Of a DNA stretch of 64,000 nt, positions 392 to 63,539 are shown piece after piece. How positions within the stretch are numbered: position 1 is the stretch's first letter; the number at the start of each line of letters is the position of its first letter. Both the position numbers and the translations under genes were made by a program. The DNA comes from Diphasiastrum complanatum (taxonomy: Eukaryota > Streptophyta > Lycopodiopsida > Lycopodiales > Lycopodiaceae): assembly GCA_029204225.1 (NCBI GenBank), contig CM055109.1, forward strand, positions 29,074,361-29,138,360, in the 5' to 3' direction. Under the pieces are notes generated by a model. That model saw nothing but the letters and a program-made list of their open reading frames with translations, had not been told where the DNA came from and searched no databases.

Positions 392-2570
392 TTCTTCCCT
401 CCTTAATTTGCTTCTATCCTTAGAAGCTCCGCAAGACAAGAAAGAATAATAGGAACAGTTCCTTTAACTTTCAATATTAACCTAGGAAACCACTATCCTT
501 AGTGTGACTTTCATATCAAACAAGTACTCAGAGATAATCAATTTTCCAATTGTTAGTCTCTGTTTTGGAATACAACTCAAGTCTGAAAAAATATACTAAG
601 CGATAAATTTACGCTCAACACAAGTTAGTAACATCACCTTCATGTATAACACTTACATGAACCAACTGAGTGAAATATTACCTAACTCAGGAGACTAAAG
701 TTAAAGAAATAATATAATAATTATAATGACAGTCTGAAATTATTGGCAAATAATTCATAAGCTTCCAAGTACAACTATCCTTAGAATTCAATTCTAAGAT
801 ATGATAATTCATTCAACTAGAATCTCTAGGAGAATCATTAAGATATAGAATGATTAAAACTCAACTCTGAGTATCCCAGATACTCTTTTGAGTTAAATGC
901 TCCTGTTTCTAGCACCAAATGCAAGAAAATAGCATTCATTCATCTTAATAGACTTGTCTATCTCCTATGATAACTGGAGATGAAGAACTGTACTCAAGCA
1001 TCTGCAGACCATAAACTGTAGCAGAACAAAATCCACTAGATAAATAATATCTGTGAGATCCATAGGTTCTCGATTAAAATACTGGAGCAAAGAGATTTAA
1101 AACACTGATTTGAATTCTTACTCAATCAATAGATCAAGAATTAACCATCACACTTTGTCTAAAATTCTCTCCAAGCCTTGATCCACTGGTATGTAACCAC
1201 ACTGATGCAAATAGTCAGCCAATTCCTCCAAATTGCCAACCATTCATCACACGCATGAAACTAGCTCAAGACACTTTGCACAAGCGTGCTAGAAGCCCAA
1301 ACCAAAAGGTTTTAAAACATAAAAGGCCATAGGTCCTCACAAAAACACAAACCCTATCTTCTTCAAAGTAAAGAAGTCTTAGGGCCGGCTTCCTTTCAAC
1401 AACATCCGAGAGGGAGAGAGAGCTTCAACCAGAGATTCAAACCAGCCGCAACTTTTTCTGGAGAGAAGGCTTCTCAGCCGCAGGCCTCAAGGATGAGAGA
1501 AGCATGATAGGAGGCTGAATTGCACTTCCACCATCGCGTCAGGGAGAAAGAGAGGAAACAGGATCAGTTTCGTCCTTTCCCACAGCAAGGTATTTGGCTT
1601 TATGGCCAATATTCATCATCCTCTGCTGTCCACGTTCACAGCCTGTCTCAAGGTCGTTCAAATGTCTCTTACTGCTCTTACTCCAGGCGCTTCCCTCCAT
1701 CAGGAATGTCCTCACGTTCTTATGGCATATAGCTAAAAGATACATGATTATTCATTAAGGATAATCCTGCAGATGCATCTTTAAGAATTCAACAGACGAT
1801 TATGGAGCAGACCTGACTTACTGGGAAGGCCGAGTAGCAGTTTAAGACACATTCATCAACCCTGTTCTCAGAAATCAAAGATCAGCCACAGCTCTTTCGA
1901 TTCTAAGCAGGCAGAAACCAGCTGTCTCATGACTTCCAACAGCTTTCAGGGTTTCAAACCTCAAAACCGAGTCTGAAAGGAGACCAACGAGCATTTTATG
2001 ACAGAGTTACACATCAAGCTTCAACCTCTGATTTACCAGCTTAACATAGCTTCCATTCTGCTAAATTTTAACATAATTGCTCATCCACCTATATTTCCAT
2101 CATGCATGTTCTTAGGAGAGTTATGATTGTAAAATAATAAGTCTTAATCCTCAACATGCAATCAGTAGAATCATGTCACAAATTGCCAACAGTCCCCACA
2201 AACTGGATAGATCGATGTAGTATCAATCTATCTATGAAAACTAGAATATTATGGTCCAGCATGTTGTTAATATTTAACCAAACAGAAAACCAGCTATTGA
2301 GCAGATCATTCACACCTTTGAAAGTTTCCTCGACTAGAACAGAGAATTAAGAATGAATTCACACTAATTCTTAGCATCTATTACCAGAACTGACCATGTA
2401 GAAGAGCATTCTACCCTCATATTGGCCAAGCATGCTCTCAACCGGAATTTGTGAATTCAACTCCATAATTTCTTTGAGAAAATAGCACTTCAACTGGGAT
2501 GTAAAGCCAAGTGCTCCCAACTTCCAAACCGATGTAGAGCTTGCCTCCATCCTATCCAAGACCATACCAA

Positions 2571-3049
2571 TGTAAAGACCCTAAAGGATTGCCTCTAAAA
2601 CGAGGATAGGAGAACACAATAGGAGAGACTATGGAGCCAAACCGCCCAACCAATCCTAGATCAAACCTGGATCTAGCCCCCAAGCCATGCCATGTGAAGC
2701 AAGAGGAGAAGAGAGAAACTGGTGACCTAAACTCAATATGTCGACGGGAGAATCCCCACCTCATTATATAGCGAGTAGAGCCTTCTGCATGAAACCATGC
2801 AACCCCCATGCAGGTCAACTATAAATAAATCACATCTCTTCATGCAGTCCTCCTGCCTATATCCGTCACACAGACATGCAATACTCCGTATGTCTCAATT
2901 AGAGTGTCTGGGTCCTCTCAAGGTTCTTAGTCACAAACTGGCCTTGACATGGAATTAAATCACGGCGTGACCAATAAATCTCGAGTACCGGAGGGCCGGT
3001 CTACCATATTAGGACTATTCTAGGTCCTCAACCGAATATGGCCATAACA
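2571..3049 (-). repeat. 5' LTR of the non-autonomous element, 479 bp
   Basis: On the plus strand the LTR begins tgtaaagacc and ends ggccataaca, giving the TG...CA ends expected of an LTR. The right flank (ttgat) would be one side of a 5-bp target duplication in the interrupted Copia integrase. Confidence 0.8.
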
Positions 3050-3420
3050 TTGATCCTTGCAAAACACTTGAAATTCCGGAGAAAGATACTCTCCCCCTTT
3101 GTCCAAGCGAAGTATCTTAATTTGTCTATCTGTTTCTTTCTCCACCTGTATCTTAAACCATGTGAAATACTTGAAAGCTTCACCCTTATTCTTCAGAAGA
3201 TAGATCCATGTCTTCCTAGAATAGTCATCCACAAACACCATAAAGTAACTTGCTCCCCCATAAGGTTGAGTCCTCATAGGACCACACAAATATGTATGAA
3301 CAAGTTCTAGAACATTTTTCGCCCTGAATGTACTAGGCAAAAATTTCTTCATACCATCATCTGCCTTATCTTAGAAGGTTCTTTGTTTGCCTCTGATGCT
3401 TAAGATGTTGAGTCTAGTTT
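3050..3420 (-). pseudogene. Ty1/Copia integrase fragment
   Basis: The minus strand encodes the start of a Copia integrase core. It includes LVHTYLCGPMRTQPYGGASY, where the catalytic Asp of the usual HTDLCGP is Tyr, then FMVFVDDYSRKTWIYLLKNK and a segment ending LDKGGEYLSPEFQVFCKD. A weak GKQRTF motif upstream fits the pre-integrase region. The frame stops at 3049, where the LTR element has inserted. The missing first catalytic Asp and the absence of the rest of the polyprotein mark a dead fragment. It lies in an intron of PDS5, antisense. Confidence 0.85.
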
Positions 3421-6360: not shown

Positions 6361-9300
6361 GTAAGATGGAATTTGGATCTGCATAAGTGTAGGCATTGTT
6401 TGATGCATTTTGTTCTTTTTCTTTCAATATACAGGTTAAGAGATTGTGAAGGTTTTCTCAGGCTTGGTCTACTCACATTATGCTTGATATGTAATTTGGG
6501 CTGCATCATTGCATCTGGGGTCAAAGTGGCAAGAGAAGACTATAAAGTCTTGCTTTTGGAAAGTTATCCTCTTTAGGTTCAGTCTTTTTTTCATTAAGTA
6601 TAAATACCATATGTAAATGTTTGAAGGTTTGGATGAGCAAGGTTGGACTTCATTCGATTGAGTTTGCTCTTTCAAGCCATTTTTATGTGCATTTTATCAA
6701 CTACACTACAACAAAGTTGATTACAGTAGCTAAAATACAAAAATACAAAACACTCAAGAGATAAGGGAATTCGTATAAGAGATATCAATCACGTTTAAAG
6801 ACTATCAATCTTGGCACCCAATAATTGGTGTGTTTGTGAAGGCCTCCCCTCCAGCCTCCCTTTGAGTTCGATTGAAGTCCGCCCATGATATGGATGCTTG
6901 AGAGACTGGGGCAAAAATTGTGATACACTCCTCACTGGGCGGGTGCTTAGTGTTGAGGAAAATGGCACCAATCAGACTTCATGCTTCAACTTCAGACCAT
7001 CAGACTTCAATGTTTACAATTTGTGTTCAACGTTGAAGATGTTTCGTTTTCAGATCTCTTGGCCTTGCAGCCCATTCTTCAACATCAAACTTTGTGGCCC
7101 CTTCAACCCGTCTTCATATCATGAACTTCTGGCCTTTCAGAAGATTAAAATTTGGCCTTACGGCATGCTGCAGCTTTTTGGAATTTTGTGGGGCAAATCA
7201 TGATTCTTTGGGTTTCGGGAATCACAAATCTGCGAATTACGATTGGTTGCAGTGAATCACAGAAAAAATAAAAACAGAAAGAAGACAAAAAGGGTGTGAA
7301 GACATGTAGGTCTGGAATGGAAGATGATGATAAACTCCTGAGAGAATTAGAAAGGAGAGATAAAATGGGCATGAAAGATCAAAAAATTAGGTCCATTCAT
7401 GGATCTTGGTGTAAGAGTCAGGCATATGTTCCTGAATGTCCACCAGGAAAAGAGCTCCTTAAGCACTCAAGTGTACAAGATTTGAACTTGAGCAGACTGG
7501 GGATGAAAATTGCAGGTACCACAACCACCGACCAAGAACAGGTGAGCTCTTTTGCTTGATCAATGATACTCATGAGGGAAGTTGGTTTGTCATCTAGCGC
7601 CTTAAGTTCTCCGAGCCTTGCACCATCACAGAAATTAGACAAGTTGGAGGTTCTTCCAAACAGGACAGCAATTTTGCTGCTAATAAATGAGCTCTTGCAT
7701 CCAATTTGCTTTTGGCCTCTGGATCCAGAGAAATGCATTAGATAACAATTCTAATGAACAAACAGTTGTTGAAGGATTGGAGATAACAAAACTTCTTAAT
7801 GGGAACTAGGTATCTAGCATGCCTCAAGGAAATGAGGCCCATACATGGAGTTGTCAAGATGATTGCTTTGCTGGAAACAGGTTAGTCCCTGCACGTGGGG
7901 AAAGGCAAGATGAAGACATCTGTAGGTTGGAAGGAAGTGGGGCAAGAAAGGAGTAGCCCATGAATAGGGATGTAAATAGAGAGATTTATCACCCATGTAT
8001 TCAGCTTGAGGAAAGAGGAAAGCGCATAATGCAGAGTGAGGCATGGAGAGAAACTTGGAGAGAAAGAAAGAAAGAAAGATTTTATTAATGTCTTTTGCAT
8101 GCCTTGTAGGAAATAGAAGCCTAAGAATCCAGAATCTTAACTATTCAATCACACAAAGCATTCTCAAAAGAAAGAGAGAGATGGCTAGAAACCCTCTTGT
8201 AGAAACTCGTGGACAGCCAAGGAGAATGGTTAGTATTGCTTACAAAAGTGTTTCATACAAATGGGATGCACACATATATGTAGTCCAAGATGACTATCTA
8301 ACTTCATGACTATTGGCTAGCCAACTACTTGACTATTGGCTATCCAACTTTCTATAAGTTACATAGAAAGAATAAGGTACCTCCAATATGTCAAGTTGGG
8401 GTACTTAATGTCACAATTAGGCCTAGTGGACCCATGAGTCCCTACCAAGTTAATTTCATACTAACTTAGCTAACATTAAGTTTAGTAGGCCTAATATAAT
8501 ATGACGATGGTTACACAACTCTCAACCTTTTGGGTCAAAGTAACCTATGGTAATGTAAGCAATTCCATTTACATTCTAACACCCTCCTTAAATGGAAATG
8601 CATAACATAACATGAAGTAACTTTTCAAAAGAGAAAAATGTAACTTGCTGTCCGAACTTCATGTCGCCAAATAAACTTCGCACCGAAGTAGTCGAAATCT
8701 CATCCCCAATCATGTCCAACATATAAAAGGAAAAGAATGCGTAATAATGAAGCATCAAGTCAAAGGGTGAGGATTTGCATGCTCCATCCGAAGTAGGAAA
8801 CCAACATAAACTCGGCAATAATTCGAAACATGGAATTGTAATCCATCATAGGCTCCCACATCATTCGAAAAAACTTTTCACCATAAGGACAATAAAAAAG
8901 TGAACCAAACTCTTTTGGCATCAGATCCTCCCAAACCTTACCGTCAATGACTTGCTCACATAGAATAGGCAATGTACCAACATCATGATGAAGAGTAAGT
9001 GTAGAACCAAAAAAATCAGCAAGAGGTACTGATTTTAAAGAGGCGTGTGCCTTTCCTTCGTAGTAAGACATTTCTTTGTTGTCCTGCAAAGTCTCCAATA
9101 GTCGACAAGGAACTGTTATGGGCTGTTCAACACTTTGCTGCCCAAAGTGTTCCCAACATGTTCATAATCTTCCGCAGGCTGTTCCTGAAGCATAATGGAC
9201 TGCTCATGATGTAAAATGTGTTGTAAATGACCAAAAGAAGATGACTGAACCTGTTGTCCAACGTCTTCATCATAAAAATTTGGCAAACTATCAAGAGATG

Positions 9301-31498: not shown

Positions 31499-34825
<3,327 letters not shown>

Positions 34826-49478: not shown

Positions 49479-50509
49479 ACCACTAGCTGTAACCACTAAA
49501 AATGTGGAGTTCTCTTTTATGTTTCAAGGGAAAGTTTACGCCCCTAATTGGCTAACTCTTGCTTGCAAAATTTGTTATGCAGCATGAAGGAGCTTGCTGA
49601 CATACCTCCCAGATTAGATGCACCTTGTTTCTCTATTATTTTCATTTGAAAGATGGTATGCTTCAATAAGTGCTGTTGCATCTTACTACTTAAGCCTATG
49701 AAATGGCTGGAGAATAGGACCAGCCTTCATAAGAGACTGCTTCATATAGCGGTTACAATTTGACATGCCTTATAACAAGATTTCCTTGGCTCCACACTTT
49801 TTGCTTCTTTTTGACCAGTTAATGTTATGGTTGATTTCTTTGAAAACTGACATGGCAGTTGACATGAAACAATATGCTGGCAAATTGCAGTGGAATAATT
49901 GCCAGGATGATCTGGAATTGCAGCCTCATCCATCACCATGGGTTTGGATTTGGGCAACAACAAGAAAACTTTCCTTGATTTTTGGAAATGAATGTATGAG
50001 ACTTGGATGTGCCGAACAGATATTGAGTTGGTATAAGATAGTTAGAATTAAAGTTATCAGCCTATTCGACCTTTTCGAAAAACTCAAATTTTCAGAGAAG
50101 CCAAAAACATAGTTGCATAATGCATTGATCATAATAGTCTATAGATATCATGATTGAAGTATAGGCATTAAAGATTCCAAATTCTATATTTTTATGATTA
50201 GCCATTTAAAGCTTACCTGATACGTGTTTAATGCTATTTGACACCTATGACCTGTATTAAGTATACTTTTAGGGTTTGAACTTTAAAATAGTAAACTTGC
50301 AAGTGATGTCAAATCGTGGATGAATCATGAAACAAATACTAATGAAATTATAAAGGTATGAACTCAAAACATTCAAATTCCAACATTCAACAATCTAGAT
50401 TCCAATTTGAACTTTACATAATTCATAAAAGTGTAGTAACTCATAAAAAGTCATTTAAGAGTAAATTTCAAAAGCTCAAACTTCAATGTTCTTAGTAGCT
50501 ACACTATCT
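49479..50509 (+). other. 3' flank of the DUF7815-type gene
   Basis: Probably includes the 3' UTR (to about 49700). The plus frame at 49765-50112 has no recognised motif. No other feature seen. Confidence 0.5.
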
Positions 50510-52660
50510 ACTATCTAATCTCTATAATTTATCGCCGCCTCCTAATCCTACTCCGACATTGTAACTCAAGGCTAGGTGCTCTTCTTCTTTCGCTGCTTCT
50601 TCCTCTTCCTCACTGCTCTCGTCACTTGATGAAGCTAGATGCTCTTTCCCTTCTCTCATCCCAACTCTTGGATGTCGAGAAGTTGCACTTCTCCTAGTAA
50701 CAAGTCTTGCATTGCAATGTCTGTTGCGCATCGACATCAGGATAGACCCTTTGAATGTGGTCATACCAACCGCCCTCCAGTTCAACATCTGATTGCCACT
50801 CCATCCTCCCCCAGAGGGGATGCAAGATGTGGACAATAACATGTAATGGCTTGTGGAACCACTGCCATCTGGTTTGCCACATTTCTTTTATCTCTTCAAG
50901 CTTGTGTGAGTCAAAACGTAAAGTTTTAGAACAATTATCAATAGACTTGTGAATCTTGATTGTATCAAAAACTAGAGTTTGTAAAATTCAATCTTCAATT
51001 AGAGCCTAGAACTAGAAACATGAACTCATAGAGAAGGCCCAAAGTGGATCCTTCTTTGTCTATGAGGCGCAAGATGGTGTGTAGCACATGTAGCCTGATA
51101 ACAATGGACTCTGCCTCCTCCCAAAAGTGACTAGAGAGTATGATCCTCTCAAACCTCTTGGACTTGGCCTTTGTGGACCCGCTCCACTCTACCCAATGGT
51201 TGGAAACAACCATTTGCCCAAGTGTATTTTGCACCTTCAGCAGCCGCTCCAAGACAATGAAAATATATGCAAGAATATTTCATAGGTTTAGACAACTTAT
51301 AATTCAAAGTTAAAATCTCATTAATGATTAAAATTAGGCAACTTGATTTTTGAATCACGATTTACAAAGAATGAAAATGAATACAAATTGCAATTTGCAA
51401 ACCTGTTATTTGGTGGGGGTGGCAGGCTGGAGGATCTTTGGGGCTTTGAATTCCCTATAGATGGAGAGGACCTTCGGTCGCTTGGTGACAAAGCTCACCA
51501 AGAATCGAGCGATGTCCACTACCTCCTTGACCCATGGCAATTTTTCAATCTCCAATCAAGAGGTCCAAACAATGAGTGGTGATCACCTTCATAGTCCAAG
51601 AAGGTACAAAACGTTTAATTAAAACTTCAAACTTGAACCAAACACAAAGTTGAAAACACTAGTTTAAATTTCAAACATTTACCTACACAACTTTTTCTGG
51701 CCCCACTTCCTCAATGGCCTTCTTGATTTCATCAAAAATATACTCATCTGTCACAATAGTTCCTGGCGCAAAGAACCGATGGATCTCAAAATATGGTGCC
51801 TTTGCAAGAAGACACCAATATGTTGACGAGCTGACTGCTCTTGATATCATTCCATCCATCTAAAAGAGTGTTGCATCCATACCTAGCCCATGAATCTCGA
51901 ATGGGAGCTGCAACTTTCTCTAGACGCTCTCCACCTTTGAGGTCAAGTGCTTGGTCCTGAGCATCTCCATGATAGGTCCTTGCCACAACACACCAATACA
52001 AGAAATAGCCCGAATCATATCCCTCTAAGCTGGGGTCTTGGCCAAATGGAAGGGAAGATCACACAAGTAGATATACCGCCTAGTAGCAATGGTTGCATTC
52101 TTCTCGTGTGATTGCTGCCATGATTGGGTAAAGACTTATCTACCACCTCTCTGTGTGGCACTATGACCTCGAGAAGGGCCTGACCTCTCGCAACATATGA
52201 ACATGAAGTGCTAGGTATATCCTCTTCAAAATCAGCACCTTCACTACCGATAGCAAATAAAGATGCTAATGCCATGTGAAACTGGACGAGGGGGACAAGA
52301 TATGGATGGCCATGCAATTTATGTTCGCATTTCAACCACCAATGTTGATGTTGACATGAGTCATGACTTAGAAGTTACAACTTACGTGAATAGTAAACTT
52401 CAAAGTTTGAAAAAAACATTTTTGGATATTGAAAAATGAAATTGCCTCCTCTTGAAGCATTCGACCCCTCACCTCTCTAGGTAATATTGATTCCAAGTTC
52501 TCAGGTGCATTTGGGCATGCTCTGATATCATATACCCTTACCCGAAACCAGTGTGCTCTAATGTGGAGGGGTGTATATGTCTACGTCTACCACCACATGA
52601 TCCCACTCAGGATCCCACATCCTAACCCTTGATCCCCCTCAAATTCCCAAACTTTGAATC
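50510..52660 (-). pseudogene. hAT-family transposase, degenerate (BED finger, DUF659, C-terminal hAT region)
   Basis: On minus, from right to left: DPEWDHV and IRACPNAPENLESILP at ~52475-52615 resemble the BED-finger segment. A spacer follows. PIRDSWARYGCNTLLDGWND, then LVNILVSSCKGTIF (51786-51930), is the DUF659 block with its catalytic-region Asp in LLDGW. FERIILSSHFWEEAESIVIR, then HTILRLIDKEGSTLGLLYEF (51000-51160), is the mid-catalytic domain. WFHKPLHVIVHILHPLW and ELEGGWYDHIQRVYPDV (50740-50870) lead into an acidic tail (SSDESSEEEEEAAKEEE) ending near 50522. Frames shift several times. hAT transposases cut and paste DNA elements; this one is dead. Its TIRs were not identified. Confidence 0.78.
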
Positions 52661-52709
52661 TTGAATAAGCCAAAATTCAAAGCTTAAACCTTGGGAAATT
52701 ATAATCTAC

Positions 52710-52863
<154 letters not shown>

Positions 52864-53103
52864 GGGCTCTATTATGTAGTTACTACGTTTTTTTCTACCT
52901 TTCAAAGCTTCATGGAAGGAATTTGCCTTTGTGGTACGAAACCTATTTAATTGCCTTACCTTGCTAAAACTTAGAAAAATGACCCCAAAAGAAAAAGAAA
53001 CTAAAAAAAAAAATTAAATTATGTCCTCGGGAGGGAAACCTTGGTTTCTTGAATGGCTATGATCTGTGCACATTAGGGTGATACGATCTAACAGTGTGCA
53101 ACA

Positions 53104-55107
53104 ATGAGCACCCAGTGCATTAAGATGTATTGGATTGTCTATATAAGGAAAGATCACACAACCCTAAGATTTACTCTTCCTGCTCTCTCCTTTTCTCGTT
53201 CTCTCTCGTATTTGCTTCTCCATTGCGACTGCTTCTGCCTTGCCTTTATGTACATCAGACAACATATGATTGAAGCTGCCATTGAACTTTCTGTTAACCC
53301 TACTGCCAAGCTTCTTGCACACCTTGGCGGAGCCAAAAATATATGTGAAATAGAACGCCTTCTTAAAAAACCCAACTTCTCTACCTTACAGGATAAATAC
53401 TTCCAAAATACAAGCGGAAAAACAGGGTCCTTCAATTTGAATAATCCAAGTTCAGTCATTTCAGGCAATGGAAACAAGAAGAGGAAATACTTTCCTAACA
53501 AAGGCAATGAGGGGCAAAGCGGTGTTGGGAAAGGCGATCTTCCTATCAGAAAGCCGAACTTCTACCGTGATTGATCCATGTGCAGGAAGATATTGAAAAT
53601 TTTAGAGTATTGGAGGTCAGTACAGTTGGTAGGCAAAGACTTATCGTTAGAAGAGATGAAGGAAAGATGTTTTTACATTTACATTATTACAAGAGGTGCT
53701 TTGAGAGTATAAACATTAAGAAACTTTATTATGAAACTTAACTCCATGTTTTTGGTTACATTGATGAGATCTTTGAGCATATTCTATTTGGCTGGACCTT
53801 TTTTCCACATTTGAAGCGTGAATGGTATAAGCCTTTTCAAGTTTTTTGCGAGTTTGACATTGATAACTTTCCACCTTGTACTTGCTTGAATTATATACGT
53901 TTTAGAGAGTTTATTGATGAAAATTTTTAGCATGTTACCTCTATGAACACTAGAATTGTAGACAGTAAGATTTTAAGAAACGACTTGAATAAAGGGCTTA
54001 TTCATATTCCTATACGCCAATCCAATATTAATGAGGTCGCTTTGGAACTGTACCATGGTTGGTTTAAATTGGCTGATTTTTTACCCTGTTATCAAAATAT
54101 GGATCATGATAGTATTGTGAAACATGCCCTTATTTGTAAGGTTGTCGTTTTGAACTTTCTAAAGAAAAATAGATGGCTTCATGGTAAAAGCACCACTAGA
54201 AAAGATTTAAAAAATGCTAGTGATGAACGTGACTGGATCACTACCTATCTGTATGTGAATGTCGTAGACAAGGCCCAACATAATCCTTGATTCATGTCCA
54301 TAAATTTTGTTAGAAATTTGGCGCTACAAAGATTATCTAGTCCGAATTTTGCTCCTTTTCCAGAAAATGGCATCAATGACATTGATAATGCTATTGTGAG
54401 TACTAAGCATAAGTTTTCTAGTATATTGCCAGAATACCTTTTAGGAAAAGACGAATTACCTTATCTACTTTGTACCTTTAAAGCACATAAGAATACCTTC
54501 AGATGGATTACAAATGCACATGACTGTTACTTTTCAAAGGTGGCCACATTTCATTCTAGGGCTCTTGGTATTCTATCTCCGCTCCTTATGGAGGGGGGCA
54601 GGCCTTAAGGCAAATTCATACCAGAGTTACCTAAATGTGGATACCAACCTATTTTAGCAGTGCAACTCATCCACTGAATTCTATCTTAACGTGCCAAGTA
54701 AAATTACTACTATGTGGTCTACCGACATCTTTAAATGTTATGAAAACATCCCTCTTAGTGGCCCTGATGGACTTAAGACTATTATATGGAAATTAATATT
54801 GTATGCTTTCAAATTTAGCAAGAACAAATTTCTTGTCTATAAATGAAAACCTGGACATGAGGAATGTAAATGGAGCATATGGACAAACTACTACTTTGCC
54901 AATGGAATGATTTATTGACTGACCATTGCATTGTAAGACTTGGAAACAAAGCTTGGAGACAAGTTTGTGGTATACCTATGGGCTTTGCCTATTCCCCTAC
55001 TTGGTGTAACTGGTATCTATCATTTTATGAATTGCTTTTTATGAAAAGACTTGCCATACTTGGAGAGTACTTACGGGCATTCAAAAATACTTTTCGTTAT
55101 ATAGATG
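53104..55107 (+). pseudogene. Divergent reverse transcriptase (Penelope/telomerase-like pattern), broken
   Basis: A basic N-terminal frame (53104-53574) is followed by ~190 codons with two stops containing REWYKPFQVFCEFDIDNFPP. Then IVDSKILRNDLNKGLIHIP (53943-54290) and the linked frame 54294-54608 carry PYLLCTFKAHKNTFRWITNA, an RT finger/primer-grip-like block. From ~54712 STDIFKCYENIPLSGPDGL is RT motif A. After a frameshift, LGNKAWRQVCGIPMGFAYSP is motif B, with TWCNWYLSFYELLFMKRLAI after it. NTFRYID at ~55094 is the start of motif C; the second Asp is lost at the junction with Copia sequence (YIDA). This order and GIPMG...RYID resemble Penelope-like or telomerase-type RTs. I recall a similar unclassified RT family in algae and seed-free plants. 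No GIY-YIG domain is visible. Several frameshifts and the lost Asp make it inactive. Confidence 0.65.
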
Positions 55108-57032
55108 CCAGGAAGCATAGGCAAAGAACATCAAGAATGGAAAGAGAAGAACGACAAAGCAGTAGTTGTCATCTCCTCTTCCATCGAAGACAACATTACC
55201 CTTGACCTCACATCAATCTCTAATGCTAGAGAGATGTGGAATACACTCATCAGCAAAGTTCAAACTAAGTCACGAAATCAGATAATGATCTAGAGGATCA
55301 ACTTACCTATCTGAGATGGGATGGCAAAGACCTTACAAGCTTCATCAGGAAGATGAAGGACCCATTCCTATCGCTACACAACACTGGAGCAGAACACGCA
55401 GTCTCACAAGAGAAACAACTCAGTTACCTGCTACGCTTCTTACCACGATCGTTCCAGACAACCCGGACATTGTTGGCTAAAGATCCTGCTATGACCTTCG
55501 AGATAGCAGTCATCGACATCAAGGAGGAAGTTGAAGCCAGAGAGCACTATGACGACAAGAACAAGTCTGATCAAGCTCTCTATGGCAATAGAGACCAGTC
55601 GAAGAAGAAACCTTATCCTAAGAGAGAGTCGACAAGCAAACCAGATCAGAACCAGCAGAAGCAGGGAACTCAAGAAGGCAGATCGAAAGGGAAGAACAGG
55701 CAACAAGAAGACATGCGACAGATGCAAATATGACGGCCACGCAGTGGATAAATGTTGGCTGAACCCAAAGATTGAGTGCATACATTGTCAACCGTGGATT
55801 GCTATGACAATCCAAGAAACAAGAAGACACAAAGCAGGAAGGAAAGCACAAACAACACATTGTACATGGAGGAGCTCGAGTCCTCAAAGATGGCTGAAGA
55901 CTGAGCTAGCAGAAGTCCTATTGCTTATGTGCTACATCAACAACCGATGTTCAAGACATAGTTCTTGATTCAAGAGCCACGTCGCACTTTGTGAGACAAG
56001 GCAAATGATCGTCAACTTTTGACAAATTGATTCCTCCAGATACATCGTTCTAGGAGATGGATCGTGACATGACGTGAGTGGCAGTGGAGTACTTTGGCTC
56101 AGCACCAATGGGAGAGACAAAAGACTAAACAACGTCCTATATGTGCCGACACTTCAGAAAGATCTGCTATCAGTTGCGAGAATAGCAAATGCAGGCATGC
56201 GTGTGACATTCATAGATCAGACATGCAATGTGATTGATGTCAGCTCCAGTTCACTCATCACGCAAGGTAGACGAAGAGAAAACTTGTATCACCTAAAGAT
56301 ATGCCTACCGACAGAGCAGGCTCATCAAGTCCGTGAGTGTATGGATGTTCTGTGGCACAGGAGACTATACCACATGAACCCTCTTGTACAAAGCAAGCCA
56401 GAATAATGCATTCGCAAGAGTAAACATCAGAGATGCAAACCTAACGTCCTGTGATACATGCAACAAAGGGAAGATGTCACGTACACCTTTCATGAAGGAT
56501 TCCTTCATAGCGACGAAACTTCTGGAGCTAATACACTCAGACATCTGTGGACCCTTTGATGCACTCTTTGTAGGAGGATCAAGATACTATATTACTTTTA
56601 TTGATGATTACAATAAGTTCGTTGTTGTGTACTTCATCCATAACAAATCTGAAGCTCTTGATAAGTTTACAGAATATGTGAACTAGGCTGAGAAGTGGAC
56701 GGAGAAGAAAGTCAAGCAAATAAGAATGGAGGAGAATATATCTCCAACCGATTTATCGACTTTTGTAAAAGTTGAGGCATCCTTCACAGGAAGACAACAG
56801 CCTATACACCACAACATAATGGTGTAGTTGAGAGGAAAAATAGAACTCTCATGGAAGCTGCAAGATCCATGATGGCCTACTCCAAGGCATCAAGATCTCT
56901 ATGGGCTGAGGTAGTAGCTATAGTGGCCTACCTGCAGAACAGGATAGGCAAGTCGAGCATTGCTCACACTACCCCACATGAGGTATGGTGGAGAAGCAAG
57001 CTAAATCTGGCTCATGTTCGAATCTTTGGATG

Positions 57033-57262
57033 TGTAGCATATGCACACATACCAAATAAGAAGAGAAAAAAACTGGACGAAAAGGTGGAGCAAGGATTCT
57101 TGGTTGGCTATGATTTTGATATACATTCTACATATGCATATGCACACATACTAGATATGTAGCATATGCACACATACCAAATAAGAAGAGGAAAAGCTGG
57201 ACGAAAAGGTGGAGCAAGGATTCTTGGTTGGCTATGATATACATTCTACATATTACAGAGTA
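57033..57262 (+). repeat. 125-bp tandem duplication within the Copia element
   Basis: The block from tgtagcatatgcacacatac to catatgcatatgcacacata is repeated at 57158, including the string gaaaaggtggagcaaggatt. It duplicates the post-integrase segment EQGFLVGYD and breaks the frame. Confidence 0.9.
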
Positions 57263-57829
57263 TACATGCCTCAAACCAATGAAGTGAAGACTGTTAGAGA
57301 CGTCAAATTCGACAAGACAAGAATAATGGCTGAGGAAGATCCGATCAGCTACGAAGCTCTCAACAGGCAATACTATGACCTACCCACATCGACAAAGGGT
57401 GCAGACCCTGAGAATCTAGATGAAGATGTTCAAATTCCAGACGAACTGAATGATAGTCTGGATGACGAGCAGACTGATATATCGGAAGTGCCCAGAATAC
57501 CTATGACACACCAAAGTTCTGTTGTCAGCAGATAGGTCAAAAACAAGGCAATTGTTGAGTCTGTATTATCTCCAAGGAGAGCACTAGTCAGATATATACC
57601 TGACAGCTCATCTTCTGCTCAAGAAGAATTTTGTGGATTCAGTGGTGAACCAAAAACTTATGAAGAAGCCATCAACAGTCCAGACAAGGACAAATGGATC
57701 AAGGCCATGGAAGACGAGATGCGCTCCATGAAGCAAAACGAAGTGTGGGCTCTCGAGCCACTACTAGCTAACCGAAAGACTGTCAAGTGTAAGTGGGTCT
57801 ACAAGCATAAGTATGGACCAAGTGCTTCG

Positions 57830-58320
57830 AAATATCTGCCTTCACCTGTGCAATTAGCTTGTCTCTTCGTGACAGAATCAGCGTGTCATCTACATAGACA
57901 CCGATTATGATGATCTCTCCGTTTATGACTTTCACATAAACGTTGTAGTCAGCCATTAAAGGCTGGAAGCCTAAGGATCTTAGTGTGTGATCCTTCTTCT
58001 TGTATCACTGGCTAGCGGACTGTTTCAATCCATAGATGCTTCTGTGCATTTTGCAGGCATAGTCAACAAGTGACTTGCAGGTAAAACCTGGTGGTTGGGC
58101 TCCATGTAGACCTCTTCTTTCAGCTCCCCATGCAGGAATGTTGTCTTTTCGTCTACAATGTGGATCTTCATATCATAGGCAACTGCATATGCAAACAATA
58201 TGCATAGAAATGTGTGCTTCACAACAGGAGAAAAGGTCTCTGTATAGTCAATGTCATACCTCTGTGAGAAGTGTTTTGCAACTAGCCTGGCCTTGTATCT
58301 TATCACTAGTCAAGATACAT
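57830..58320 (-). other. Inverted reverse-transcriptase segment within the Copia element
   Basis: The minus strand of this ~490-bp block encodes, in order, IRYKARLVAKHFSQRYDIDY, TETFSPVV, KTTFLHGELKEEVYMEPN, MHRSIYGLKQSASQ and IGVYVDDTLILSRRDKL. This is the RT core including the catalytic YVDD (~57884-57895). The plus strand on either side encodes what normally precedes it (CKWVYKHKYG) and follows it (GVNTPM). It is therefore an in-place inversion. Confidence 0.88.
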
Positions 58321-59115
58321 TCAGAAGATCATTGATAATTGCAACATGATAGATTGCAAGGGAGTAAATACTCCAATGGTCCATGGCACAGTGCTGACAA
58401 GTAAAGACTGTCCCAGAGATGAAGCAACACGACAAGCAATGGAGCATAAGCCTTACAGAAGGCTTATCGGTTCTTTGACGTACTTGGCAGACAATACGCG
58501 GCCAGACATTGCCTATGCAGTGTTCAGATTGAGCCAATTCAACATAAATCCAGGTCTAACACATTGGAAAATTGCCAAGAGGATTCTGCAATACCTGAAA
58601 AACACAAAGGACTATGGCCTATGCTATTGTCGAGATGCAGAAATCAAGATTGAATTCTACAGTGATGCAAGTTGGGTGTCCCTGAAAGATGATAGTAAAA
58701 ATGTCTCAGGATGATGCACCATAACAACCGATGCAGCTGTTATATGGATCAACAGAAAGCAGACAATAACTACCCAATCATCATGTGAGCTAGAATATGT
58801 TGTTGCAGCCAAAATGGCTAATGAGCTGACATGGCTCAGACAGTTCCTAGGGGGACTAGGATAGAGCACCGATAAACCGTTGATCCTGCACATGGACAAC
58901 ACATTAGCTATTCATCTGACTAAAGACCCAGTGTTTCAGTCTAGAATGAAACGCATGGCCATTAAGTATCACTTGATTAGGGATCCGGTTGAAAAGGACG
59001 ATGCCTTCATATCGACAAAGCAGATGGTAGCTGATATCTTTACGAAGCATCTAGACAAGGCATTGTTTGAAAGACAAAGGTCAAGCTTGGGAATCAGCAA
59101 AATATCGCTTTGAGA

Positions 59116-62640: not shown

Positions 62641-63539
62641 ATGCTAAGAAGATGCATTAGGATTGATATTACTTGATTATGGAGTTCAGAATGTGATGAA
62701 GATTGATTCGCTTGATGACTTGAGTTGTTTGTAAACAAGGAATGATAGTGTCATAGGATACATGAATGTTGGATAAACTAAAATTGGTTGTTGTATGTAA
62801 GCTAGAGCTTTGTCTAGGTTTGGCTCTTGTAGGCTTGAATGGCATGGATTTGCACAAGCCCTATGGTGTTTAGACTTCAAATGATCTTTCTAGAGTTGAA
62901 GGGGCTAGTATGGCACAAATATGCCATGGTACCCAATGCCTATGCTTGAGCTATAACTCCTTGTCTTCTATGGAATATGTTATGGTTTCTTATGTATGTG
63001 GAATGCTAATATGAACTTCATAAGCTCATTATGCCCTTATACTGATCAGTATGGCATCTTCCCTGATACAGCTATGTTTTTAGGGCCAAACATATTGCTA
63101 GGAATGTAAGTCATGGATGGGAAGATTGGACATATGTTATGTAATTGCAGTTGAGTTGATAAAGTAATTGAATCTTGATTCAGACATGGATAACAAGTAA
63201 TGCTCGGCTATGACACATGTCTTTCCCGTTGTAATAACTTGTGCGGTTTTGTGTTGTGGGATGGTAGCAAGTAACAGCTGAGTATCGTAAAACTTGCTTC
63301 GCTTTATGGTACCTGGTACTGTAAGACTTTATACAACTTTGCTTTTACCTGTTATGCTATAAAATGAAAGGGTTCAAAGGGTTTGGTCTTGACTTGCCAA
63401 GAGGGACTATGTGAAATCTTCTTACTCTCTCTCTTCCTTCACACTAAAATTCTCCCTTCAACAAACTACCTCTCCATCTCTTCACAGAGCTACTGCCCAG
63501 AACCATAGATCTCTCTCTCAGCTCTTTGCTTGTGCTAAA
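62641..63539. other. AT-rich DNA, nothing recognised
   Basis: Short frames only. The pyrimidine-rich stretch at 63415-63530 precedes a gag fragment and may be part of its LTR or leader. Confidence 0.4.

Follow-up and report, generated by a model that had tools for sequence, protein, structure and literature searches.

The reading that we favour for the reverse transcriptase (RT) remnant at 53238-55107 is that of a dead copy of an abundant, endonuclease-less retroelement of the Penelope/telomerase type, whose RT was primed at (CT)n microsatellites. A probability of roughly 0.64 is assigned to it. The window, that is, the whole stretch of 64,000 nucleotides that was analysed (contig C18, 29.07-29.14 Mb), was compared with other copies in the same genome, and these supplied the full structure of the element, its ends, and element-free versions of two of its insertion sites.

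The reverse transcriptase remnant in the window

All parts of the window copy lie on the + strand. The direct repeat (pseudo-LTR) opens with a (CT)n tract of 150 bp (52712-52861) and continues with the start segment of the repeat, R, in the form of the subfamily to which the window copy belongs (52862-53207; blastn to L028, L029, L035, L036 and L039); comparison between loci placed the start of R at 52806-52878. Its duplicate aside, other copies share approximately 74-88% DNA identity with the internal region that holds the RT gene remnant (53238-55107). This region corresponds to positions 1149 to 3058 of the internal region, I, of a full copy, with the start of I and everything after RT box C missing. 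The first-pass annotation had drawn the element from 53104 to 55107; its end was confirmed at approximately 55107, at the junction with a Copia gag fragment, whereas homology starts at 53238.

An upstream coding piece in frame 0 (53238-53571, ..KLLAHLGGAKNICEIERLLKKPNF..) matched the natural ORF of L026 by tblastn (E 1e-55). The pre-RT region and fingers are read in frame 2 (53580-54605), with three in-frame stops (53739, 53928 and 54288), the HIP block at approximately 54000 and FKAHKNTFRWITNA at 54477-54518. The piece with RT motif A (WSTDIFKCYENIPLSGPDG) is in frame 0 (54601-54846) and has one in-frame stop (54655), motif A itself beginning at 54724, within TDIFKCYENIPLSGPDG. Motif B and the first half of motif C are again in frame 2 (54870-55106), with GIPMGFAYSPTWCN at 54969-55010 and FRYID at 55092-55106. 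Four in-frame stops interrupt the RT from 53580 to 55106, and its reading switches between the two frames twice, once close to 54605 and once between 54846 and 54870; the earlier description of a broken copy was correct.

At motif C the remnant is joined to a Copia-type gag-pol fragment that is foreign to the element (55105-59113, +). The gag part matched Retrotran_gag_2 (E 4.6e-5, below the cut-off of that profile), and the pol part was named from reading of its frames; two pol pieces had no Pfam match at E 0.01, and no LTR pair was found for the fragment. Further downstream lies a 3' end of R, ending ..GAAATCTTCTTACTCTCTCTC (63002-63434, +; 80% identity to positions 1902-2332 of the L031 R, E 1.6e-101), which is either part of the window copy, split by later insertions, or a separate fragment. 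The block 50000-59083 is duplicated on contig C9 at 98-99%, and a stretch of 487 bp within it is inverted there. The window also holds an unrelated CT tract of 314 bp at 33255-33568. That the DNA comes from a plant, as had been supposed, was supported by the Copia proteins (by reading) and by the one telomerase gene found.

Four blocks in RT order (FKAHKNTFRWITNA, TDIFKCYENIPLSGPDG, GIPMGFAYSPTWCN and FRYID, + strand) had been reported from the letters of the window, and they were recovered in that order. A generic A-B-C pattern for RTs, composed after the blocks had been seen, had one ordered occurrence in the 64 kb, both strands considered, and none in 600 first-order Markov shuffles, which rules out a chance reading of the blocks. 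The window remnant matched nothing in Pfam, NCBIfam or PHROGs, even when read through with X at the breaks, and no RT in PDB. A methyltransferase matched by the window protein in PDB (E 1) and an uncharacterised PDB protein matched by profile A1 (E 0.05) were discarded, and PDB searches with L026 alone and with profile A2 gave no match. Because a LINE fragment of the window, equally long and used as a control, gave only a weak match to Pfam RVT_1 (E 0.013), the silence of the profiles on the 79-aa window fragment is no strong evidence.

Relatives of the window copy were more informative. RVT_1 was matched by L107 from the same genome (E 1.6e-7; 31.7 bits, above the cut-off of 29.6), by L106 (E 4.8e-6), by a piece of L031 (E 3.4e-5) and by L026 (E 7.4e-4), and was unmatched in L027, L028, L039 and the L042 piece with boxes B and C. 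L107 also matched a solved RT, 8bgj, at E 0.037. L106 and L107, which have approximately 54% identity to L026 in the RT, carry the same RT blocks, and in all three the catalytic D..DD is present, as FRY[IV]DD, after which come I[CS]FINN and a conserved stretch. The family belongs to the reverse transcriptase superfamily.

Coding constraint was assessed from differences between copies. L026 and L029 differ at codon positions 1/2/3 in 65/55/159 places, and the protein was therefore under selection during the spread of the family; an excess at third positions was also present between the window pieces and more distant copies. The window piece 54291-54605 differs from its close relative L042 in 8/6/10 places, which is near neutral.

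Searches outside this genome gave no eukaryotic relative, either in viral contigs or in prokaryote contigs. Two viral scans returned 7 and 9 pattern matches, none upheld by tblastn, and three were empty; the matches rejected were a single one in a stop-riddled frame, eight short frames (26-51 aa, six of them identical) and four unrelated frames (three identical). Among prokaryote contigs there were four matches, two of them real bacterial RTs (L010 and L012) and two due to chance. The family aligned to these bacterial RTs in hhalign with a probability of 85% (best of 20 column-shuffled controls, 2.4%), a match that is partly circular because those RTs were found by the motif; the probability for the window's LINE RT fragment was 0.05%. 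Plasmids and phages gave weak chance matches only (E 6-9).

Abundance and anatomy of the family

With a 105-aa piece as query against the 1.745-Gb genome, all 150 scored places matched (150/150, E < 1e-36; 2417 first-look candidates). A natural ORF of 571 aa, used in the same way, matched 88 times in 76 scored places (7210 first-look candidates). These candidate totals, and that of 1928 given below for the R ends, are first-look counts and unverified. The family is abundant, and its places are spread throughout the large contigs.

The anatomy of a full copy was determined from 20 loci of approximately 9.7 kb, mostly picked for long ORFs. The internal region I (3.6 kb) consists of a long upstream coding part without a known domain, the RT, two stem-loops and a CT tract. 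The region with HIP and FKAHK blocks ahead of the RT recurs across copies, as the first-pass annotation had anticipated in describing a long conserved N-terminal part.

Beside I stands the direct repeat R, approximately 2-2.4 kb when long. With CT tracts masked and a minimum of 100 bp, R was found upstream of I in 18/20 loci, downstream in 13/20 and on both sides in 12/20, the flanking direct repeats of these 12 being whole or partial. The two copies of R are 92.6-94.9% identical in L027, L030, L031 and L032, and 93.7% identical in L044. In L029, L037 and L044 the upstream repeat extends back into the end of I, and the R repeats are therefore taken to derive from a partial upstream tandem unit.

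Sixteen R/I junctions were recognised by pattern, and in 15 of them the CT run is of a single length (13 identical, 2 with one G); in the remaining one it is longer. Of two junctions beyond the pattern, that of L045 differs by one base and that of L039 by the sequence after the run. Such constancy indicates that the junction was inherited with the element. An origin of the R-I-R order by nested self-insertion is unlikely, as the junction run is constant and the terminal tracts are variable. In several other copies the order at the junction is stem-loops, (CT)n and ATGGGCTC. The end of I (stem-loops and CT) and the end of R both adjoin CT, and either may be the true 3' end of the RNA; in L043, other sequence follows directly after the end of I.

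The stem-loops were far more stable than shuffled sequences in L031 and L106 (z of approximately -5), and less markedly so in L042 (z of -1.9). Over 17 copies the stem-loops are mostly conserved in sequence, with 1 of 30 pairs changed on both sides, a weak covariation signal; they may be a recognition site for the RT on the RNA. The distant relative L106 retains both stem-loops and, after them, the CT tract and an ATGG start of R. In L107, neither a CT tract nor stem-loops were found downstream of the RT within the fetched piece.

The arrangement R-I-R resembles LTR-internal-LTR, and the element could be regarded as an LTR or DIRS-type retrotransposon with long terminal repeats of 2.3 kb and a merely divergent RT. 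This is very unlikely. Gag, integrase, protease, RNase H and tyrosine recombinase had no Pfam match in the tested pieces; the R ends in five loci are CT tracts and not TG..CA; and the entry of the upstream repeat into the end of I is that of partial tandems. Box B of the family, GIPMG..SP..CN, is also presumably not of the LTR form, which counts against the same reading. No LTR or LINE hallmark was seen, in agreement with the original statement that the blocks are not of LINE, Copia or Gypsy type.

Endonuclease domains were searched for in the same way. GIY-YIG was not found by Pfam in the N-terminal, RT or C-terminal pieces, and a GIY-YIG pattern in nine loci had its sole match outside the element. 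APE and restriction-like endonucleases had no Pfam match in the tested pieces. The N-terminal region could hold a divergent endonuclease beyond the reach of Pfam. A hammerhead ribozyme was not found by Rfam in the window, L031 or L042, and a CTGATG near the start of I, considered as part of one, was rejected on that result.

The relation to telomerase, proposed from the start together with that to Penelope, needs a distinction. The pseudo-LTR-type repeats and the lack of a detectable endonuclease agree with a Penelope/telomerase-like element, and this is most likely the type of the RT. A telomerase gene in the strict sense was not supported: the telomerase RNA-binding domain PF12009 had no match in the element and one match elsewhere in the genome (among 18 scored candidates), and the host has a telomerase gene of its own (L094/L095), whose boxes are GIPQGSILSPLMC and RMIDDSLLIS. 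Two or more telomere-type units were present in 0 of 58 loci, flanks included.

CT tracts at element ends and at element-free sites

The ends of R were surveyed with the last 138 bp of R as query, which gave 40 scored places from 1928 candidates. Thirty-eight were examined with 400 bp of downstream sequence, and two were omitted as they lie inside loci already included. Eleven are internal R/I junctions (L051 and L076, with a G in the CT run, were classed as internal by reading) and 27 are terminal, counted irrespective of whether they belong to a whole R-I-R copy. A tract of 10-73 CT units follows 16 of the 27 terminal ends; at four there are 4-8 units and at seven none. Some R ends are duplicates (L053/L075, L054/L056 and L078/L081, with L070-L073 in one cluster), and independent counts are therefore approximately 14, 4 and 3. 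As background, 474 of 128,000 window positions (0.37%) precede such a tract.

All 16 long terminal tracts read CT on the coding strand of the element. GA tracts of at least 8 units were present, among the 20 longer loci, only in L033 and L042, away from the mapped ends. The sequence beyond the terminal CT is mostly unlike that of other loci; in L054, L056 and L065 a common repeat follows, and in L063 the CT leads into the start of another R. At the upstream side, L027, L030, L031, L032, L034 and L045 end at the CT tract that begins R, and L026/L043, L033, L040 and L044 have truncated 5' ends away from CT. The CT-microsatellite target is the most unusual feature of the family, and was absent from the first-pass annotation.

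The link with microsatellites might be incidental, in a CT-rich genome where recombination between tracts moves pieces about. The unrelated CT tract elsewhere in the window and the R end of L063, joined via CT to an R start, are what such a process would leave. We consider it quite improbable: 16 of 27 ends, all on the coding strand, against 0.37% of window positions speak against it, and at the L032 and L034 sites described below a whole R-I-R stands where sister repeats have a CT or pyrimidine stretch.

Element-free sites were obtained from loci whose flanks are themselves repeated. The flanks of L032 are a dispersed genomic repeat, sister copies of which were found with the flanks joined. 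Eighteen sisters that stood high on the list were taken, of which 17 contain the right flank. Of these 17 element-free sisters, 16 have 11-122 CT units at the insertion point (3 of the 16 matched on both flanks) and one has 4. The eighteenth, L126, was found via the left flank, which continues into CA-rich sequence without CT; its right flank was not found. The CT tract preceded the element at the L032 site.

The flanks of L034 are another repeat, judged by translation to be a LINE. Here 7/22 sisters have at least 11 CT units, and 15/22 are pyrimidine-rich with 2-7 CT units. All six fetched sisters with approximately 80% or more on both flanks carry long CT, and 15 of 16 more distant sisters have short CT runs only. 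The first ten sisters were picked partly for extra length and all ten have CT runs, so that this early sample favoured long tracts; enlargement of the samples (12 more sisters for L034, 8 more for L032) weakened the L034 case and upheld that of L032. The L034 tract may have grown within a subgroup, as some of the close sisters with long tracts are local duplicates. At this site, a CT or at least a pyrimidine-rich stretch preceded the element, less firmly than at L032. L030 yielded no empty site: on its left side lies an abundant repeat, the end of which is 10 bp short of the tract.

These sites bear on the alternative that the CT is a tail, added by the RT to the end of the cDNA at any location, either in the manner of telomerase or by slippage. 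Terminal tracts that range from 0 to 73 units, an element whose own 3' end is CTCTCTC, and the 15 of 22 L034 sisters with only 2-7 CT units would be expected from tailing, and Penelope-type RTs are related to telomerase (PMC12632851). On the other hand, 16 of 17 element-free L032 sisters already hold at least 11 CT units at the exact point, and so, with less weight, do 7 of 22 L034 sisters, among them the six closest of those fetched; the sequence to the left of L045, moreover, is another repeat with a CT-rich tail of its own. Tailing is on balance unlikely, and insertion at tracts already present is preferred.

Comparison with known elements and a possible priming mechanism

Canonical Penelope-like elements (Penelope/Poseidon, Neptune, Naiad/Chlamys and Dryad) likewise have direct pseudo-LTRs derived from a partial upstream unit, and truncated 5' ends. 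We take the RT motifs of the present family to be of the same general kind as theirs. They differ in carrying a GIY-YIG endonuclease, which was not found here. We understand the pseudo-LTRs of Penelope-like elements as partial upstream tandem units (PMC3846280 and PMC11167929). PMC11167929 also describes initiation of reverse transcription inside the RNA for one canonical element, which has a hammerhead ribozyme that the window, L031 and L042 lack by Rfam; the pLTRs of an Adineta element are 218 bp (PMC3846280), compared with approximately 2-2.4 kb in the present family.

Closer still are the endonuclease-deficient Penelope-like elements (Athena and Coprina, and those of Selaginella, pine and spruce), in which the RT is likewise the sole recognisable enzyme, with no GIY-YIG. 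PMC9033089 lists them for Selaginella, pine and spruce; according to PMC3846280 they apparently start reverse transcription at double-strand breaks or exposed chromosome termini, and are largely limited to chromosome ends. By its repeats and the lack of a detectable endonuclease, the present family appears to work like one of these elements, and would probably belong to the Penelope clade.

It might then be an ordinary, known element of the telomere-linked Selaginella/conifer kind, with nothing new in its targeting. In keeping with this, PMC9033089 lists such elements from a lycophyte and conifers, and known ones do without an endonuclease (PMC3846280). Set against it are the dispersal of the present copies throughout large contigs, where the known elements are largely at chromosome ends, the lack of two or more telomere-type units in any of 58 loci, and the many ends that adjoin (CT)n. 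We regard it as unlikely, and retain the reading of an element primed at CT microsatellites. The CT-microsatellite target is a new feature; the RT-based kind of element is itself already known. Among the open-licence literature matches listed, none described a Penelope-like element that lies in CT microsatellites, and the designation of the remnant as the strongest under-described candidate in the window was upheld.

Insertion into microsatellites has a parallel in certain non-LTR retrotransposons (PMC4640811), which bring a restriction-like endonuclease and have another type of RT; no such endonuclease was found in the present family.

A different parallel is offered by telomerase, which primes at a chromosomal 3' end through pairing of a repeat-like RNA template. 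Its RT is related to those of Penelope elements (PMC12632851), and its RNA-binding domain was not found in the present element.

An RT without a nuclease of its own needs a ready 3' end. CT simple repeats are known for unusual DNA structure, and CT microsatellites may open as triplex (H-DNA) or break, exposing (GA)n 3' ends. In the mechanism that we propose, the element RNA would pair with the chromosomal (GA)n strand through its CU tracts, either those that adjoin the stem-loops or those at the CUCUCUCUC end of R, and the RT would then extend a 3' end that a break or the unwinding of a (GA/CT)n tract had exposed. Such pairing of CU with (GA)n would determine the site of insertion as well as the orientation observed at the terminal tracts. 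At its upstream end the element would either be truncated or be joined to the far side of the target at a CT tract of the cDNA; upstream starts at the CT tract of R would fit a joining by repeat-to-repeat annealing. Whether a Penelope/telomerase-type lineage has in this way replaced its endonuclease by microsatellite-primed reverse transcription, amplifying at internal chromosomal sites rather than at telomeres, is in our estimate an evenly balanced question.

If this is true, a lineage that uses a dinucleotide microsatellite shows how an endonuclease-less RT can spread through a genome, and the family would provide a very large set of insertions from which the priming rule could be read directly. 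It would also bear on the possible evolution of telomerase-like priming, and would tie a simple repeat to the growth of a retroelement in a plant genome.

Surroundings of the RT remnant in the window

The broken copy of the element was abutted by a Copia-type gag-pol fragment (window 55105-59113) that lacks a 5' LTR, and the junction of this fragment with the RT remnant fell within RT box C. No LTR pair was detected. Window positions 50000-59083 have a segmental duplicate on contig C9 of the same assembly (locus L041, 98-99% identity), in which the Copia fragment is present together with the remnant of the RT; 57820-58306 was inverted in one relative to the other.

Features within the element

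When L030 was compared with L031 at L030 positions 2543-2600, a stretch close to the start of the internal region, I, was absent from L030. In other copies this stretch starts near GT and ends near AG (boundaries approximate); it is possibly an intron. Inside the direct repeat, R, an antisense open frame of 129-132 aa was kept in both R copies of L031 and of L030; a Pfam search of the L031 frame gave no match. Bacterial RTs from Anaerolineales genomes (L010 and L012) carry the box GVPMGAVLSPLWCN, which is close to the element's own GIPMGFAYSPTWCN.

CT-rich tracts and repeat ends

A 314-bp CT microsatellite was present at window 33255-33568, and the sequence adjoining it had no element match. 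At L042, a 134-bp GA tract (6709-6842), the reverse of the usual CT orientation, was located within the downstream repeat region of the element copy.

A short dispersed repeat whose end resembles ..GGCATGGAAAAGACATTAATAAAG was observed in the window, the left flank of L045 and L059. The window has five copies on its minus strand, which end at about 21782, 20343, 19707, 19128 and 8064; a tail rich in TTTC or CT comes after four of them. The L045 element copy is located in a tail of that kind, behind a ..GGCATGGAAAAGACATTAATAAAG repeat.

In L070-L073, L044 and L062, similar sequence that is not CT (..TTCATGCTTATAC..) comes after the repeat end. The L070-L073 ends, four in number, were clustered at 66.68-66.90 Mb of contig C6, and the ..TTCATGCTTATAC.. 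ends look like one insertion multiplied locally.
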